A stretch of 64,000 nucleotides of DNA from a virus. Where the stretch lies: IMG/VR virus record IMGVR_UViG_3300044739_000018, positions 62,001 to 126,000 of that record. One strand, given 5' to 3'. Each line of letters begins with the position of its first letter. Positions within the stretch are counted from its first letter, which is position 1. A model generated the notes under the pieces. The model saw nothing but the letters and a program-made list of their open reading frames with translations. It was not told where the DNA came from and ran no database searches. Positions 1,603-62,033 of the stretch are shown piece after piece. The translations under genes were made by a program, and so were the position numbers.

Positions 1603-2142
1603 TCACCAGGCCATGTATTTCGGTCGTGTCTCGTCGGTGAGCCACTCCAGGCTGACTGGCTTGCCGCTCAACACTCGTTGGCAGATTTGGTTGTCGCAGC
1701 GGTGGGCTTCCTCGGCCATGCGAGTTGCCCAGCGTGCCAGGCTGGCATCATCGCCACCACGGCTTGTATTGCAGCGGTGGCAGGCAATGACGAGGTTCGC
1801 GTTGTCGTTGCCACCACCGTTGCGCCGCGAGACAAGGTGCTCGATGGTCCGCATGTTGCGCTTCGTGATGCCCGCTGTGGAGGGAAGCGGTGGCCTCAGG
1901 ACGTGTGTCTCCACGCCACACCAATGGCAGTTCGGGCCGTCACGAGCAACGAGCTTCTCGGCCTTGCGGCCCGCCCAGCCCATGCTGTTCGTGCCACCGA
2001 CTGTGCGCTCGTTCTTGAGCTTCTTGCGGCTTACAAGGCCGCAGTTGCCACAGTAGTACCGGCTGCTGCCCCGGAGGATGGTGTGATCGGGATGACCGCG
2101 GCAGGGCTGGTCGTCGAAAATGCCGCGGTACTCATTCGCCAT
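1603..2142 (-). CDS. HNH endonuclease
   Basis: 179 aa. The HNH fold is plain: CHWCG (zinc), then IEHLVSRRNGGGNDNANLVI with the catalytic His and the central Asn, and ACHRCNTSRGG. An N-terminal CGNC pair suggests a second zinc ribbon. It has its own start without overlap to neighbours, which fits either a homing endonuclease or a packaging-associated HNH. As it is far from any terminase in this window, homing is the simpler reading. Confidence 0.85.
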   Translation of the reverse strand: MANEYRGIFDDQPCRGHPDHTILRGSSRYYCGNCGLVSRKKLKNERTVGGTNSMGWAGRKAEKLVARDGPNCHWCGVETHVLRPPLPSTAGITKRNMRTIEHLVSRRNGGGNDNANLVIACHRCNTSRGGDDASLARWATRMAEEAHRCDNQICQRVLSGKPVSLEWLTDETRPKYMAW

Positions 2143-2145
2143 CGC

Positions 2146-2394
2146 TCACTTCGCAAACTCCGTAAAGCCCCCCAAGAACCGGGATTCTGTAGAGTTGACT
2201 TCGTAGTCCCTACAGAGTCCATGCCTGTTGATGCTCAGCTCGCGTGAGGGGCCTGTGTGCTTTTCGTGCTCGTACCTGTGGAACGTACAGGTACCCCAAT
2301 CGACCTTCGGCTCAATTCTGGCGTAAACACACGTGCCACAAGCCCGGATCTTGTAGTCGATCTCGATGAGCTTGCTACGTTTGTTTGCGTCCAC
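2146..2394 (-). CDS. Cysteine-rich hypothetical protein
   Basis: 82 aa from a GTG start. CGTCVYARIE...CTFHRYEHEKH...LCRDYE gives four Cys and several His in the order of a small zinc-binding or phage Cys-rich domain. Overlaps the 3' end of the upstream gene by 20 nt. No named family recognised. Confidence 0.65.
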   Translation of the reverse strand: MDANKRSKLIEIDYKIRACGTCVYARIEPKVDWGTCTFHRYEHEKHTGPSRELSINRHGLCRDYEVNSTESRFLGGFTEFAK

Positions 2395-2647
2395 GTTCCT
2401 TGATCTTTGCTACCTGCTGCGCCGTGAATTCCTCCAACTCCAACAGCAGCGCCTCGACCTGTTCCTCGGTCCTGCCCGTCTTGACCAAACTCTGCCGCAA
2501 TTCCTCTCGCAGCAGGTCAGTGATATCAGGCTTTACGAACTTGGGTTCATGCTTGCAGGGCGTGATGACGTGCTCGGTCTTGGGGCCAGGACACCGGCAT
2601 TGACGCAGCGTGATGCCGCACTCGCAAACGTCGATGAAGTGACTCAT
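2375..2647 (-). CDS. Hypothetical zinc-site/coiled-coil protein
   Basis: 90 aa. ATG at 2647 is preferred because AAGGAGACC precedes it. The N-terminus CECGITLRQCRCPG is Cys-rich, and the rest is a charged helix (EEQVEALLLELEEFTAQQ) likely to form a coiled coil. Function unknown. Confidence 0.7.
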   Translation of the reverse strand: MSHFIDVCECGITLRQCRCPGPKTEHVITPCKHEPKFVKPDITDLLREELRQSLVKTGRTEEQVEALLLELEEFTAQQVAKIKERGRKQT

Positions 2648-2781
2648 TCGGTCTCCTTGGTCAGCCTGTCGACCTCGGCCAGCAGCAGACGACGGTCCCA
2701 CTGCGCCTGGTAGTGCTCAGGCAACTTCGGTCCATACGCCGTGTCGCGGGCACGGATGGCTTCCAACTGCTTCGGAGTCAT
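2644..2781 (-). CDS. Small hypothetical protein
   Basis: 45 aa (MTPKQLEAIRARDTAYGPKL...). It overlaps its neighbours by ATGA on both sides, which supports it despite the length. The sequence resembles short phage proteins made of one amphipathic helix pair. Confidence 0.65.
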   Translation of the reverse strand: MTPKQLEAIRARDTAYGPKLPEHYQAQWDRRLLLAEVDRLTKETE

Positions 2782-2960
2782 TCTGCCCCCTTGGTCAGTG
2801 CCTGCGTGAGCTTTTCGGCATCGGCCTGGCTCAACATCAGTTCGAGCACAGAGCCAGGAGCTTCCTTGTACTCGTTCACGGAGACGAAGGCGGTGATGCC
2901 GACGCTGCGCAGGGCTGCCATCAAGTCACTAGAAGCCTTGCGTTCTCTGGCGTTACTCAT
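2778..2960 (-). CDS. Small hypothetical protein
   Basis: 60 aa starting MSNARERKASSD. Mixed alpha/beta pattern (VGITAFVSVNEY, LELMLSQADAEKL). Starts within the stop region of the phosphoesterase gene. Function unknown. Confidence 0.7.
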   Translation of the reverse strand: MSNARERKASSDLMAALRSVGITAFVSVNEYKEAPGSVLELMLSQADAEKLTQALTKGAE

Positions 2961-3538
2961 CAGCGCCGTTCGTCGTGATGGTCTATTGGCTTCCACTTCT
3001 TCTTCTCCATCCTGCGCACGGCCGCATCGAAGCTGATCGGCGCGTACTCCTGAGCGTCCACGCCCACGTCGAAGCTGCGCCTGTCGACGCGCTCTGCCAG
3101 CGTTCCGTGGCTGTGACCGTACAGGTGGAAGGCGCCTTTGTGGCTGCCGTTCCAGACCTCCATGCTGTAGTGACACAGCACGATCTTCTGCTTGCCGACG
3201 CTGATCTCATGCACGCCCGGGTGGATCTCGTCGAAACCCTCGGGGAACTCTGGGCTGCGCCGGAAGGCACTGGACTTGCGGGCGATGGTGCGGGCGTCGT
3301 GATTGCCGAGGATGATGACCTTGATGCCTTTGAGCTGGCGCAGGATATGACGAATCTCGTCATCCTTGATCTTCATGGCAAAGTCACCAAGGTGGTACAC
3401 CACGTCATCATCGTCTACGCGGTCGTTCCAGTTGTCGATCAGCGCCTTGTTCATCTGCGGGACGCCGGAGTAGGGACGGTCGCAGAAGTCGATGATGTTG
3501 GCGTGACCGTAGTGCGTGTCACTAGTGAACCAAATCAT
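2960..3538 (-). CDS. Calcineurin-like metallophosphoesterase
   Basis: 192 aa. All blocks of the two-metal phosphoesterase fold are visible: FTSDTHYGH (D-x-H), YHLGDFA (GD), ILGNHD (GNHD), VLCHYSMEVW and HLYGHSHG (GHxH). The start MIWFTSDTH at 3538 places motif 1 at the N-terminus, as in the phage and YfcE-type subfamily. Substrate cannot be read from the sequence; cyclic nucleotides, RNA 2',3'-cyclic ends or phosphoproteins are all used by relatives. Its place next to rtcB would suit an RNA-end function, but that is inference. Confidence 0.88.
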   Translation of the reverse strand: MIWFTSDTHYGHANIIDFCDRPYSGVPQMNKALIDNWNDRVDDDDVVYHLGDFAMKIKDDEIRHILRQLKGIKVIILGNHDARTIARKSSAFRRSPEFPEGFDEIHPGVHEISVGKQKIVLCHYSMEVWNGSHKGAFHLYGHSHGTLAERVDRRSFDVGVDAQEYAPISFDAAVRRMEKKKWKPIDHHDERR

Positions 3539-3734
3539 CCGTTCGCTTCCTCTTGAGGGCGGGGCCGATAACAGCGTCGAGCCGCCCGTCATGACCGACG
3601 AAGGAACGCATCCACCAATAGCCCTCGATGGAGGCGGCGAGACGCTTGCCCAGGTCATGTTGCTTGGCTCCGGGCCTCGGCACCAGCGACATGTGGACGA
3701 TGCGCCAGCCGCTCGTCCATTTTCTGCGGCTCAA
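3522..3734 (-). CDS. Small basic hypothetical protein
   Basis: 70 aa, lying between rtcB and the phosphoesterase with overlaps on both sides. Trp- and Arg-rich, no recognisable domain. Start could be the internal MSLVP at about 3692, but the ATGA overlap with rtcB favours 3734. Confidence 0.65.
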   Translation of the reverse strand: MSRRKWTSGWRIVHMSLVPRPGAKQHDLGKRLAASIEGYWWMRSFVGHDGRLDAVIGPALKRKRTDDLVH

Positions 3735-8559: not shown

Positions 8560-8944
8560 CGCGCCACCCCCAATCCTCGTTGAATGACTCGTCATCAGGG
8601 TAGAGCGAACGGGCCTGGTCCTCGGTGATGGGCAGATATGCAGCAGGCGTGCCGTTGCACCAGCCAAGCACGCTGTTCCAGGTGCCATAGCCGTAACCGC
8701 TGTCGCGCACCCAGCGCAAAGGGGCACGATCCCAGGCGGCGATCCAAACGCTCTCGATGAGCGCCTTGAACACGTTCTGATTGGTTGCCGTGATGGCAAA
8801 GCCCCACAGGCTGTCGGACAGCCCCAGAATGCGGCTGTTCCAGTTGCTGCGGGTGACGAACTCGCTCTTGTCGAAGTTCGTCTCGTGCGGATTCGGGTCG
8901 GCGGTGGTGAACTTTGTCATCTTGATCTCGTGGAACTCCGTCAC
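8531..8944 (-). CDS. Hypothetical protein
   Basis: 137 aa, Trp- and acid-rich C-terminus (DEDWGWRDDD type), no membrane segment. Overlaps the methyltransferase start by 29 nt. Function unknown. Confidence 0.7.
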   Translation of the reverse strand: MTEFHEIKMTKFTTADPNPHETNFDKSEFVTRSNWNSRILGLSDSLWGFAITATNQNVFKALIESVWIAAWDRAPLRWVRDSGYGYGTWNSVLGWCNGTPAAYLPITEDQARSLYPDDESFNEDWGWRDDDTDGTVD

Positions 8945-9267
8945 TTTGTCTCCAGGTCTTTGGCGAGCTTGGTCAAGCTCTTGGCTGCTGCCCGCATCTG
9001 TATGGCCTGTCTGTGATCGAAGTCGCGCCGACAGAATTGGACGTGCTTGAAAATGTCAGTCTCGATGGGGTCGTGGCACCAACCACAGTTGCCGCCCGAG
9101 TGGACGGGTAAAGGTTTACGCCCTCGCCCGCCCATGATCTCATAGACGAGGTAGTCGGCGCGTCCGATCTCGTTCTCTGCGGTCGTAACGTCACCCCCAC
9201 GTGCCGCTACCGCTGCATTGCCTAGTACCTCGCGTATCTCGTGCAGGTCACGAACGTCGACGAGCAT
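8941..9267 (-). CDS. Zinc-finger hypothetical protein
   Basis: 108 aa from ATG 9267. CGWCHDPIETDIFKHVQFCRRDFDH gives a C-x2-C plus C/H set like the DksA/TraR-type or phage single zinc finger. Helical flanks. Function unknown. Confidence 0.7.
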   Translation of the reverse strand: MLVDVRDLHEIREVLGNAAVAARGGDVTTAENEIGRADYLVYEIMGGRGRKPLPVHSGGNCGWCHDPIETDIFKHVQFCRRDFDHRQAIQMRAAAKSLTKLAKDLETK

Positions 9268-9268
9268 G

Positions 9269-9859
9269 TCAGTCCCAGAGGTCGAAGTACCAGGCGTGGA
9301 ACAGCTTGAACCCCTCGTCGAACTTGGTCTCCAGCGCAACGCGCTCGTCAGGCTCGGGGAACTCGTTGCCGAGAACCTTGGCGGCCTCGAAGCCCTCGAT
9401 GATCTTGGTCAGCACGGCGTTCCACGCCTCGCTGCCCGTCTCGGTGTCACTCGGCTCGCCCTCACCGTGCAGGCTGGCGGGGTAGCCGTGCTCCGTGGCG
9501 CGCAGGTGGGTGACGGTGCCGATGATTACGTCGTTGAGGTAATCGAACAGGCTCCACACGTCACGGTAGGACCAGCCACGCTCGGCCCGCTGGCGCAGGT
9601 GCTTGTACCTGGCGCGGATGTGACGTGGAGTCAGGTGCTTGTGCTCGATGATGCGGGCGACGCGCAGGTAAAGCGGCCGCGGTGTCAGTTTGTCGAAGAT
9701 GGCGTGCTGTTCCTTCCAGAGTGGGGAGTCAGGCTCCCAGCGGTAGGTGCCGTGCTCCGTGCGAAGCAGGTTGTCGATCTCCAGGTAACGCTCGTTCTGG
9801 AGCGCACGACGCTTGCCCTTGTCATACCAGCGATTGTGCAGCTTCTCGTAGACGCTCAT
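9269..9859 (-). CDS. Hypothetical protein
   Basis: 196 aa, strongly basic and aromatic (RAERGWSYRDVWSLFDYLND). Start ATG 9859 overlaps the upstream stop. All-helical appearance; no family recognised. Confidence 0.75.
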   Translation of the reverse strand: MSVYEKLHNRWYDKGKRRALQNERYLEIDNLLRTEHGTYRWEPDSPLWKEQHAIFDKLTPRPLYLRVARIIEHKHLTPRHIRARYKHLRQRAERGWSYRDVWSLFDYLNDVIIGTVTHLRATEHGYPASLHGEGEPSDTETGSEAWNAVLTKIIEGFEAAKVLGNEFPEPDERVALETKFDEGFKLFHAWYFDLWD

Positions 9860-10245
9860 GTTCCGAACGTTCCCCCACAGGAGGGGCACGTCTCGCCACG
9901 CATGACGCCGGGGTGCGGGCAGGTGAGCCGGTTCGAGTCGTTCAGGAGAGAGCGAAGCTTGGCCTCGGACTCGGTGTCCTCCTGGTGCCAGATATCGGCA
10001 TGGTGCCCGAACACGTAGTTCGAGAGAAGCTGGCCGAGACGCTGATCCGGGTTGGCGTACCAAACAGAGCGAAGCATGTTGATGATGGTCTCGATGCGCT
10101 CGGGAGCACGCGGGGTGGACAGCCATGGAGCACCGACGCCCTCGGGGAAGTCGGTAGCCATGACGGCCTTGTGTGCCTCACGCACGGTGTCGCGGTTGAA
10201 CCCGTCGTTGGGGTCCTTCTCGGGGTCGTATGGCTCGTTAGGCAT
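9856..10245 (-). CDS. Hypothetical protein with C-terminal zinc pair
   Basis: 129 aa. Begins MPNEPYDPEKDPNDGFN and ends CPHPGVMRGETCPSCGGTFG, a C-x9-C-x2-C zinc knuckle. The middle is helical. Function unknown. Confidence 0.75.
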   Translation of the reverse strand: MPNEPYDPEKDPNDGFNRDTVREAHKAVMATDFPEGVGAPWLSTPRAPERIETIINMLRSVWYANPDQRLGQLLSNYVFGHHADIWHQEDTESEAKLRSLLNDSNRLTCPHPGVMRGETCPSCGGTFGT

Positions 10246-10648
10246 TGGCGGGTTCTGCTCCTGGTATCTCGGGTGTGATGCGGGCCTGCGGGCATGCAGC
10301 AACGAGAGCCTCGAACTGGTCTTTGCTCCAACGCTTGCCAGACACGTCGAACTCGAAGGTGTCCCATCCGTCCTTGACGTGCTTGCCAAAGCCGTAGATT
10401 CCGACGCCCGCTTCTTCCTCCAGGTACTCGTGCAGGAACACCATGGGCCGCTCGTATTCCTCGTGGCCCCTCTCCATGCCTGCTGCTGCGTACTCGTCGG
10501 GGTACTCGCGGATGAGACCAGCCAGGTCGATGGTCAGATCGACTTGGTATTCGATGCTGCCCTTGATCTCGAAAGGCTCGGGATAGGGCGGGCCGTGGAC
10601 TGGCAGCACGAGGTCGGGCATGCCGGGGAGTCCAAGCTGGTCAGTCAT
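10238..10648 (-). CDS. Hypothetical protein
   Basis: 136 aa from ATG 10648. Acidic, mixed alpha/beta, with a KRWSKDQFEALVAACP segment. Overlaps both neighbours. Function unknown. Confidence 0.75.
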   Translation of the reverse strand: MTDQLGLPGMPDLVLPVHGPPYPEPFEIKGSIEYQVDLTIDLAGLIREYPDEYAAAGMERGHEEYERPMVFLHEYLEEEAGVGIYGFGKHVKDGWDTFEFDVSGKRWSKDQFEALVAACPQARITPEIPGAEPANA

Positions 10649-49753: not shown

Positions 49754-50025
49754 CTTGAGATAGCCGGGTGACCGCGGCACGACTTGATCGTGTCGAGGAA
49801 GGTCGGGACTCCACAGGACGAGGGAGCCAACGAGAGTTGGGCGGGCGTGAGCTTGCGGCTCTGCAACAGAGACGAGCCGGTTAAGTCCGGGTGAAACGGG
49901 CAACCCCCTGGAGCAACTTCATACAGAGGTCGCTGGTCCGGCGATAACCTCGGGTAGAAGGCTTAGATGGATGGTCACCGCGCTACATGCTGGCGTACAG
50001 AATCCCGCCTACAAGCTATCTCAGT
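49754..50025 (+). ncRNA. rnpB: RNase P RNA (catalytic RNA)
   Basis: About 270 nt, closed by P1 TGAGATAGC/GCTATCTCA (49756-49764 with 50015-50023). The conserved blocks are in order: GAGGAAGGTCGGGACTCC (E. coli GAGGAAAGTCCGGGCTCC), TGCAACAGAGA (identical to E. coli), GGGTGAAACGG, GGAGCAA, CGGGTAGAAGGCT, TTAGATGGATGGTC (E. coli CTAGATGAATGACTG) and ACAGAATCCCGCCTAC (E. coli ACAGAACCCGGCTTAT). It is smaller than host RNase P RNAs (350-400 nt), so some peripheral helices are reduced. It would work with the host RnpA protein to mature the tRNA 5' ends. It sits between two tRNA-Ser genes. Confidence 0.9.
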
Positions 50026-50030
50026 ATCTC

Positions 50031-50492: not shown

Positions 50493-50838
50493 GGGGCTGA
50501 CAGGTTTCGACGGTGCAAGTGAAGCTAGGAGTGCGACCGGTCTTGGGCAGAGACCTAAAACGGCCTACCAAAAACAAACGACAACGACATCGTTGCCGAG
50601 GCAGAGGCCGTCCTGGCTTCTGCTGCTCTCGCTACTGTCTGACAGTAGCTTGCGGGGAAGCCCATCCTTGAGATCCAAACGGGCATGTGACATGACTCTC
50701 AGGAAAGACTGAGTGGCGCTCCGTGAAATGCGGGCTGACAGCCGGAAAGACGGCACACTGGCCCGACAGTAAACGGGAATGGTCGTATCACAAGTAGTGA
50801 ATCTGCAACGGACGTGGGTTCGAATCCCACCAGCTCCA
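50493..50838 (+). ncRNA. ssrA: tmRNA
   Basis: Starts GGGGCTGACAGGTTTCGACGG and ends with T-arm GTGGG-TTCGAAT-CCCAC and CAGCTCC-A; the acceptor pairs with GGGGCTG. The tag frame reads about TNDNDIVAEAEAVLASAAL-ATV then TGA, so it ends ATV, not the usual LAA, much like the tag I recall for phage Bxz1. CCA is not encoded. It would rescue ribosomes on mRNAs lacking a stop. Confidence 0.95.
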
Positions 50839-50848
50839 CGTGTATGCG

Positions 50849-50945
50849 CAACGAAAGGTTGGCTTAGAGGCAGCCATCCTATAATGAGTGGGGTAACGGT
50901 CCATCTTGGCAGTAGCTGGGGTGGACCTCCGGGCAATACCGTTGG
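50849..50945 (+). ncRNA. RNA resembling 23S rRNA L11-binding domain
   Basis: GTTGGCTTAGAGGCAGCCATC at 50857-50879 differs by one base from E. coli 23S helix 43, and the following CTATAATGAGTGGGGTAAC resembles the next part (helix 44) of actinobacterial 23S. Further helices (AACGGT/ACCGTT, GGTCCA/TGGACC) close it. The rest of the gap to 51063 has no clear gene. Could be a decoy for L11, thiostrepton-like ligands or translation factors. A decayed tRNA D-arm is the alternative. Confidence 0.5.
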
Positions 50946-51063
50946 AGACAGCGAGTACGTCCGGGATCAGGTACGTGGGGACTAGCCTGCCCATCGGTAA
51001 CCGCTTTCTCCGTTCCTCGGAACCGCCCTTTGGCGTAATAGCACATCCTTGCGTGACACACCT

Positions 51064-51146
51064 GGAGAGGACCCGAACGGTCAGGAGCCTCGTTGGAAGC
51101 GAGGTACGGGTGCAAGCCCTAGTGGGTTCGACCCCCACCCTCTCCG
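51064..51146 (+). tRNA. tRNA-Ser(GGA)
   Basis: Acceptor GGAGAGG/CCTCTCC, loop TTGGAAG, long variable arm, G73. Fourth Ser isoacceptor. Confidence 0.92.
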
Positions 51147-61709: not shown

Positions 61710-62033
61710 GTGGACAGTCAAGACCGGTTCTCCCGTGCCCAGTTCGAAGCCGCCCGTATGTTCGTAGCCCGGATGCGAGCGGAGGCCAACCAGGAGATGT
61801 TCGAGTTCGATGACATCGGCATGCTATGGCTACCAGACCTCGACGGTGAAGATCCCATCGTGGCCGATGTGGATGGCAGGCCCATAAGCGCCGGGGACTT
61901 CGTGCGGGCGGCTCTGGTCATGATGTGGAGCATGCTGCTGGAGACAGCCCAGCTTCAAGACCTCGACCCTGGTGCCCTCGTGACGCAGCTTGGTTTGAGC
62001 CTGGCTCAGTACGAACCGCCAGAAGGTACTTGA
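61710..62033 (+). CDS. Hypothetical protein
   Basis: 107 aa from GTG 61710, with a TAGACT box nine bases ahead, so probably leaderless. Acidic, helical. Divergent from the HU gene. Confidence 0.7.
   Translation: MDSQDRFSRAQFEAARMFVARMRAEANQEMFEFDDIGMLWLPDLDGEDPIVADVDGRPISAGDFVRAALVMMWSMLLETAQLQDLDPGALVTQLGLSLAQYEPPEGT

Follow-up and report, generated by a model that had tools for sequence, protein, structure and literature searches.

Genes and features of the locus

The window analysed here is a 64,000-nt stretch (positions 62,001 to 126,000) of the IMG/VR virus record IMGVR_UViG_3300044739_000018. It holds genes for RNase P RNA, tmRNA and a tRNA-Ser-like molecule and, between the last two, an RNA that resembles the GTPase-associated centre (GAC) of 23S rRNA (Table 1). 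The tRNA-Ser-like gene gave partial blastn matches to the annotated tRNA-Ser of Arthrobacter phage Mimi and Streptomyces phage GiJojo, and a weak, sub-threshold match to the tRNA-Sec model in Rfam cmscan.

Table 1. Position and parts of the GAC-like RNA and the stable-RNA genes near it; numbering within parts is that of E. coli 23S rRNA
Feature	Position in window	Strand	Remarks
RNase P RNA, class A, phage-encoded	49756..50027	+	RF00010, 120.2 bits, full length, above gathering score
tmRNA gene	50493..50839	+	directly upstream of the GAC-like RNA
Whole GAC-like RNA	50845..51055	+	~211 nt, between tmRNA and tRNA-Ser-like gene; both GAC halves and closing stem
Closing stem 5' strand, H42-like	50845..50854	+	pairs with 51046-51055, 9/10 pairs, one C.C mismatch
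H43 (1057-1081)	50856..50880	+	20/21 identity over 1059-1079; Rfam LSU match
Junction 1082-1086 and H44 5' strand (G1087 AGU)	50881..50889	+	invariant A1084/A1085/A1088, covarying 1082:1086
Inserted domain, 139 nt	50890..51028	+	closed by GGG 50890-50892 / CCC 51026-51028
UUUG linker	51029..51032	+	near-invariant in the phage family; E. coli 23S GAC has no linker
H44 3' half, GC-GUAAUA-GC hairpin (1091-1103)	51033..51045	+	A at 1101, U in E. coli
Closing stem 3' strand	51046..51055	+	read from sequence; pairs back to 50845-50854
tRNA-Ser-like gene	51063..51146	+	downstream of the GAC-like RNA; not called by ARAGORN

The sequence GGTTGGCTTAGAGGCAGCCATC is found exactly at 50857-50878 and nowhere else in the window, where 0 occurrences are expected even with 3 mismatches. 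Comparison with E. coli 23S 1059-1079 (GUUGGCUUAGAAGCAGCCAUC, taken from L123/L208) confirmed the 20 of 21 matches to helix 43 that the initial annotation had counted. Rfam cmscan placed the LSU rRNA model RF02540 at 50853-50905, over H43/H44, with 22.4 bits and an E value of 7.7e-5, a match that is below the gathering score of 50 yet above chance level. The RNA is not part of a ~2.9-kb rRNA, as this match covers 53 nt only and the flanks are tmRNA and the tRNA-Ser-like gene. A tRNA had been named as the alternative to 23S; no tRNA-family model matched inside 50845-51055, and the 23S reading stands.

The interval originally assigned to the RNA, 50849-50945, proved too short. Its boundaries were wrong because a 139-nt domain, inserted into the H44 5' strand at about E. 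coli 1090/1091, separates the two GAC halves. Relatives revealed that the resemblance to 23S resumes as TTTGGCGTAATAGCACA at 51029-51045, and the H44 hairpin together with the 3' closing strand (TTTGGCGTAATAGCACATCC, 51029-51055) lies 130-160 nt further downstream, outside that interval. H43 has the 1057-1081 pairing and the conserved loop, the GC-GUAAUA-GC hairpin of H44 sits at 51033-51042, and a stem unites the two. Sequence comparison thus strongly supports the window RNA as a complete GAC, with closing stem, H43, H44 and tertiary-contact bases. Its MFE z score is -2.99. A point against is that H44 is missing from the MFE structure of this RNA, though the fold of H44 depends on tertiary contacts.

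The RNA recurs in viral genomes and isolated phages

We found at least 165 distinct full-length relatives with the same layout in four productive IMG/VR scans, isolates and genome contigs, with a length of 147-334 nt (10-90%). The first two IMG/VR scans gave at least 120 matches each, and the family total is larger than the 165 members collected. In 84,980 species genomes, 13 of 18 pattern matches were true members, some of them beside phage-type genes. Nine isolated phages carry the RNA with at least 6/8 closing pairs: Pseudomonas phages Milchi, pf16 and UNO-G1W1, Cronobacter phage GAP32, Pectobacterium phage CBB, Xanthomonas phages XacN1 and XaC1, Aeromonas phage 4_4572 and Erwinia phage Kaldavass. 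In these isolates it is unannotated, lying in gaps between annotated genes or overlapping short hypothetical ORFs. The GAC-like RNA is virus-associated, and many of the phages that have it are unrelated to the one analysed here.

Several candidates were rejected. Vibrio phage 2.275.O has the 5' core with an unconvincing 3' half, the match in Paenibacillus phage Pd_22F is genuine 23S, and plasmid matches (523 records) are presumed to be genuine 23S on large replicons.

Rfam 15 has no family for the RNA beyond the weak rRNA match, and we found no description of it in the literature searched, the coverage of which excluded preprints and most subscription journals. With that reservation, the RNA family appears to be undescribed.

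Pairing covaries and tertiary-contact positions are invariant

Because the 165-member set had been selected on at least 5/8 closing pairs, the covariation analysis used another set, of 121 members, in which pairing had played no part in the selection. Pairs 3-8 of the closing stem were formed in 83% of cases, as against 33-46% with the strands slid by 1-3, and pairs at the base of the insert in 94%, as against 44-75% when slid. Individually, the basal pairs of the insert reached 98/97/89% where 61/54/41% is expected. Within the GAC itself, 1058:1080 of H43 was paired in 99% (42% expected) and 1082:1086 in 91% (55% expected). At least 7/8 closing pairs together with 3/3 insert pairs were found in 76/121 members (63%), compared with 0.6% when halves came from different members.

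For conservation, the 5' positions were read from members that the 3' pattern had identified, and the 3' positions from those that the 5' pattern had identified; the counts lean somewhat high, as the end patterns allowed only two or three mismatches and closing pairs were required. The invariant positions on the 5' side are G1055, G1059, U1060, G1063, C1072, A1077, A1084, A1085 and A1088 (U1060, C1072, A1084, A1085 and A1088 at 58/58 each among members found by the 3' element), and U1083 is kept in 57/58. On the 3' side, C1092, G1093, U1094, A1098, G1099 and A1103 are invariant and A1095 is kept in 73/78. We take the invariant positions to be the tertiary-contact network known from GAC crystal structures. 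Loop bases 1067-1070 vary among members, position 1067 being A in 43, G in 12 and C in 3 (n = 58). A1101 and the UUUG linker are marks specific to the phage family. Together, the covariation in 121-165 relatives, the invariant tertiary bases and the recurrence in isolated phages bear out the initial annotation of a phage RNA resembling the L11/GTPase-associated centre. One member, L036, is identical to E. coli 1046-1077 at 32/32 nt and 83% identical over 1091-1120, which supports a probable descent of the family from a 23S gene.

Inserted domains differ between classes and some carry a sarcin-ricin-like loop

The inserts are large and variable, without conservation between classes, whereas the GAC is constant. 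A hairpin of the type CACCCCGNAAYGGUAAGG stands directly before the 3' core in the inserts of 33/165 members (e.g. L001), and also in L319; another insert class has GACCCUUAGAG in that place. At L167 and L069, one contig carries a pair of GAC RNAs whose inserts differ, which suggests exchange of inserts while the core stays the same.

Nine relatives with long inserts, about 5% of members, have a hairpin that resembles the sarcin-ricin loop, of the form AGUA-C-NNNN-G-G(A/G) within a 6-bp stem (5 or 6 pairs) and with GNRA in seven of the nine. Under a stricter test it was found in 6/121 members, as against 0.035 in dinucleotide shuffles. The window RNA was searched for such a loop, a stem bearing C-GNRA-G and the bulged-G motif AGUA/GA, and none was found; Rfam detected no sarcin-ricin loop in the two relatives tested. 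Most members with the hairpin (L050, L085, L103, L145, L174, L193, L288 and L297) also have an upstream segment of 7-11 nt, 64-74 nt before the loop, that is complementary to it and is possibly a switch or an alternative pairing. Because of this upstream complement in most and the lack of Rfam support, we leave the hairpin as a strong resemblance to the sarcin-ricin loop rather than a proven motif. The pattern GGAGTRGCRAGTGGAAG, tried as a way to further members with such a loop, was discarded, as 57/59 new loci were chance matches. Long queries of this class against isolated phages returned core or 23S matches only, or none.

Genomic setting

A tRNA lies within 1.5 kb in 89/152 loci, the nearest always on the same strand at a median of 20 nt, compared with 19/59 for random places in the same loci; the 63/152 loci without a tRNA within 1.5 kb count against the decoy proposed below. 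RNase P RNA is present in two loci, that of the window and L002 (9376-9703, minus strand, 264 bits). No neighbouring protein recurs widely except HNH endonucleases (22 loci), which are expected near phage tRNA clusters. Genes for RNA repair (RtcB, Thg1, polynucleotide kinase/RNA ligase and another RNA ligase) accompany the RNA in no more than a few loci. A protein with DUF2828/DUF7788, which is annotated as RNA-binding and may be a Ro60-like RNA binder, was found in 7/173 loci and 0/57 controls, counts that are too few for significance, the controls amounting to ~1/4 of the total length. In those seven loci its gene is at most about 5.5 kb away from the GAC RNA (L001 at 8940-10328; L222 at 2070-3590, PHROG 'RNA-binding protein'; also L015, L066, L076, L164 and L318). 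The 163-kb record from which the window comes, itself possibly incomplete, yielded no gene for L11 or for L12, and for this reason any protein partner of the RNA would be the host's.

Comparison with known RNAs

The phage RNA shares with the GAC of 23S rRNA (H42-H44, E. coli 1051-1108) the H43 sequence, the GC-GUAAUA-GC hairpin of H44, a closing stem and the tertiary-contact bases. It differs in being a free-standing gene, in the insert in the H44 5' strand (139 nt in the window), in A1101 and the UUUG linker, and in a closing stem whose sequence is unrelated to H42 in most members. By setting, the nearest kind is that of GOLLD and ROOL, large structured RNAs of phages and prophages with unknown function that are often near tRNA islands (PMC12286853). 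The GAC-like RNA is shorter than these and is built on an rRNA domain, and the window RNA and two relatives tested had no Rfam match to GOLLD or ROOL. Ribosomal-protein mRNA leaders, such as the L10 leader, likewise imitate a protein-binding site of rRNA; unlike these, the GAC-like RNA stands among tRNA genes with a tRNA-like gene rather than a ribosomal-protein gene downstream, and has no Rfam match to them. T4 stable RNAs C and D are also small stable RNAs of a phage tRNA cluster, but were rejected as relatives, as neither has the GAC sequence. In the 5% of members concerned, the AGUA-C-GNRA-G-GA hairpin on its 6-bp stem is like the sarcin-ricin loop of 23S; unlike the latter, it sits inside the H44 insert and goes undetected by Rfam.

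A possible off-ribosome decoy

We propose, giving it about an even chance, that the RNA is an off-ribosome GAC that binds host L11, possibly also translational GTPases or RelA, and acts as a decoy. Like the tRNAs and tmRNA beside it, the RNA would be excised from a transcript of stable RNAs; it would then fold as a GAC away from the ribosome and may engage the L10/L12 stalk along with L11. In competing for these partners, it could bias host translation, or the control of the stringent response, to the advantage of the phage. The variable insert may tune affinity, stability or specificity; in a minority of members its sarcin-ricin-like loop would supply the second half of the site at which factors bind. 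The GAC is known to bind translation factors and to stimulate them (PMC8183687), and binding of RelA to the ribosome is mediated by L11 (PMC9998046). These known roles and the conserved fold are our grounds for expecting a stable transcript that would bind L11 in competition with the ribosome; the effect of the RNA in the cell is a guess, as no recurrent protein partner was found. Titration of L11, or effects on the stringent response or on GTPases, as suggested in the initial annotation, would be plausible. Against a decoy stands the vast excess of ribosomes over the transcript of a single phage gene, unless that transcript is very abundant. We consider it improbable that an RNA with both a GAC and a sarcin-ricin loop would be a miniature factor-binding centre, which would bind and perhaps stimulate GTPases off the ribosome and so reprogramme elongation or ppGpp signalling.

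If the proposal is true, the GAC-like RNA would be the first case known to us in which phages employ a functional domain of rRNA in trans, as an RNA of its own. It suggests that phages use RNA for ribosome mimicry, would extend the phage translation kit of tRNAs, tmRNA and RNase P RNA, and would offer a natural means of probing the biology of L11, the stalk and RelA. The phages isolated with it can be cultured, and in their genomes the RNA accounts for a gap in the annotation, so that the proposal is directly testable.

An unlikely but serious alternative is that the RNA serves counter-defence as bait, a substitute target for host toxins, nucleases or modifiers that attack the GAC or, in a subset, the sarcin-ricin loop. 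Its place in the company of tRNAs and tmRNA, joined in two loci by RNase P RNA, agrees with this, as do the RNA-repair genes near some loci and the sarcin-ricin-like loop in some members, and phage tRNAs have been proposed to counter tRNA-targeting defences (PMC10264068), which provides a parallel. However, conservation spans the whole tertiary fold and not one site, with loop bases 1067-1070 free to vary, and the repair genes are near only few loci. To our knowledge, no defence system attacks the GAC.

The large, varied inserts with recurrent motifs, the tRNA neighbourhood and the DUF2828/DUF7788 protein near some loci would also fit a scaffold, in which the RNA, L11, L10 and L12 would assemble off the ribosome into a stalk particle, there to concentrate elongation factors or to protect phage tRNAs and other RNAs. 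We hold this to be quite unlikely, given that inserts differ between classes and there is no constant partner. It is distinctly improbable that the GAC is only a compact, stable fold that presents a functional insert: the GAC is robust as a fold and the insert is large and varied, but a plain helix would suffice, and the inserts are class-specific while the GAC is constant. Moreover, conservation extends to exposed bases, such as U1094 and A1095, that would not be needed merely for holding an insert.

Thiostrepton occupies the space that separates the N-terminal domain of L11 from the H43/H44 tips, stacking on A1095 (PMC8183687), the base kept in 73/78 members. The RNA is nevertheless very improbable as a sponge for thiopeptide antibiotics, and the binding of thiopeptides suggested in the initial annotation is unlikely, with G or C in place of A1067 in 15/58 members found by the other end. 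A1067 is required for tight thiopeptide binding, and thiopeptides mostly do not enter Gram-negatives, the hosts of the isolated phages found. Resemblance by chance, contamination by host rRNA and a 23S fragment in decay, readings that draw on genuine 23S in some phage-labelled records such as Pd_22F, are ruled out by the covariation controls (slid strands, mixed halves) and disagree with the coherent layout, the phage-specific insert, the UUUG linker, A1101, the compensatory changes in 121-165 members and the nine isolates.

Elsewhere in the window, two tRNAs with a CTA anticodon lie on the minus strand at 38010-38083 and 38648-38717; ARAGORN calls both tRNA-Pyl, Rfam supports the first, and they are possibly amber suppressors.
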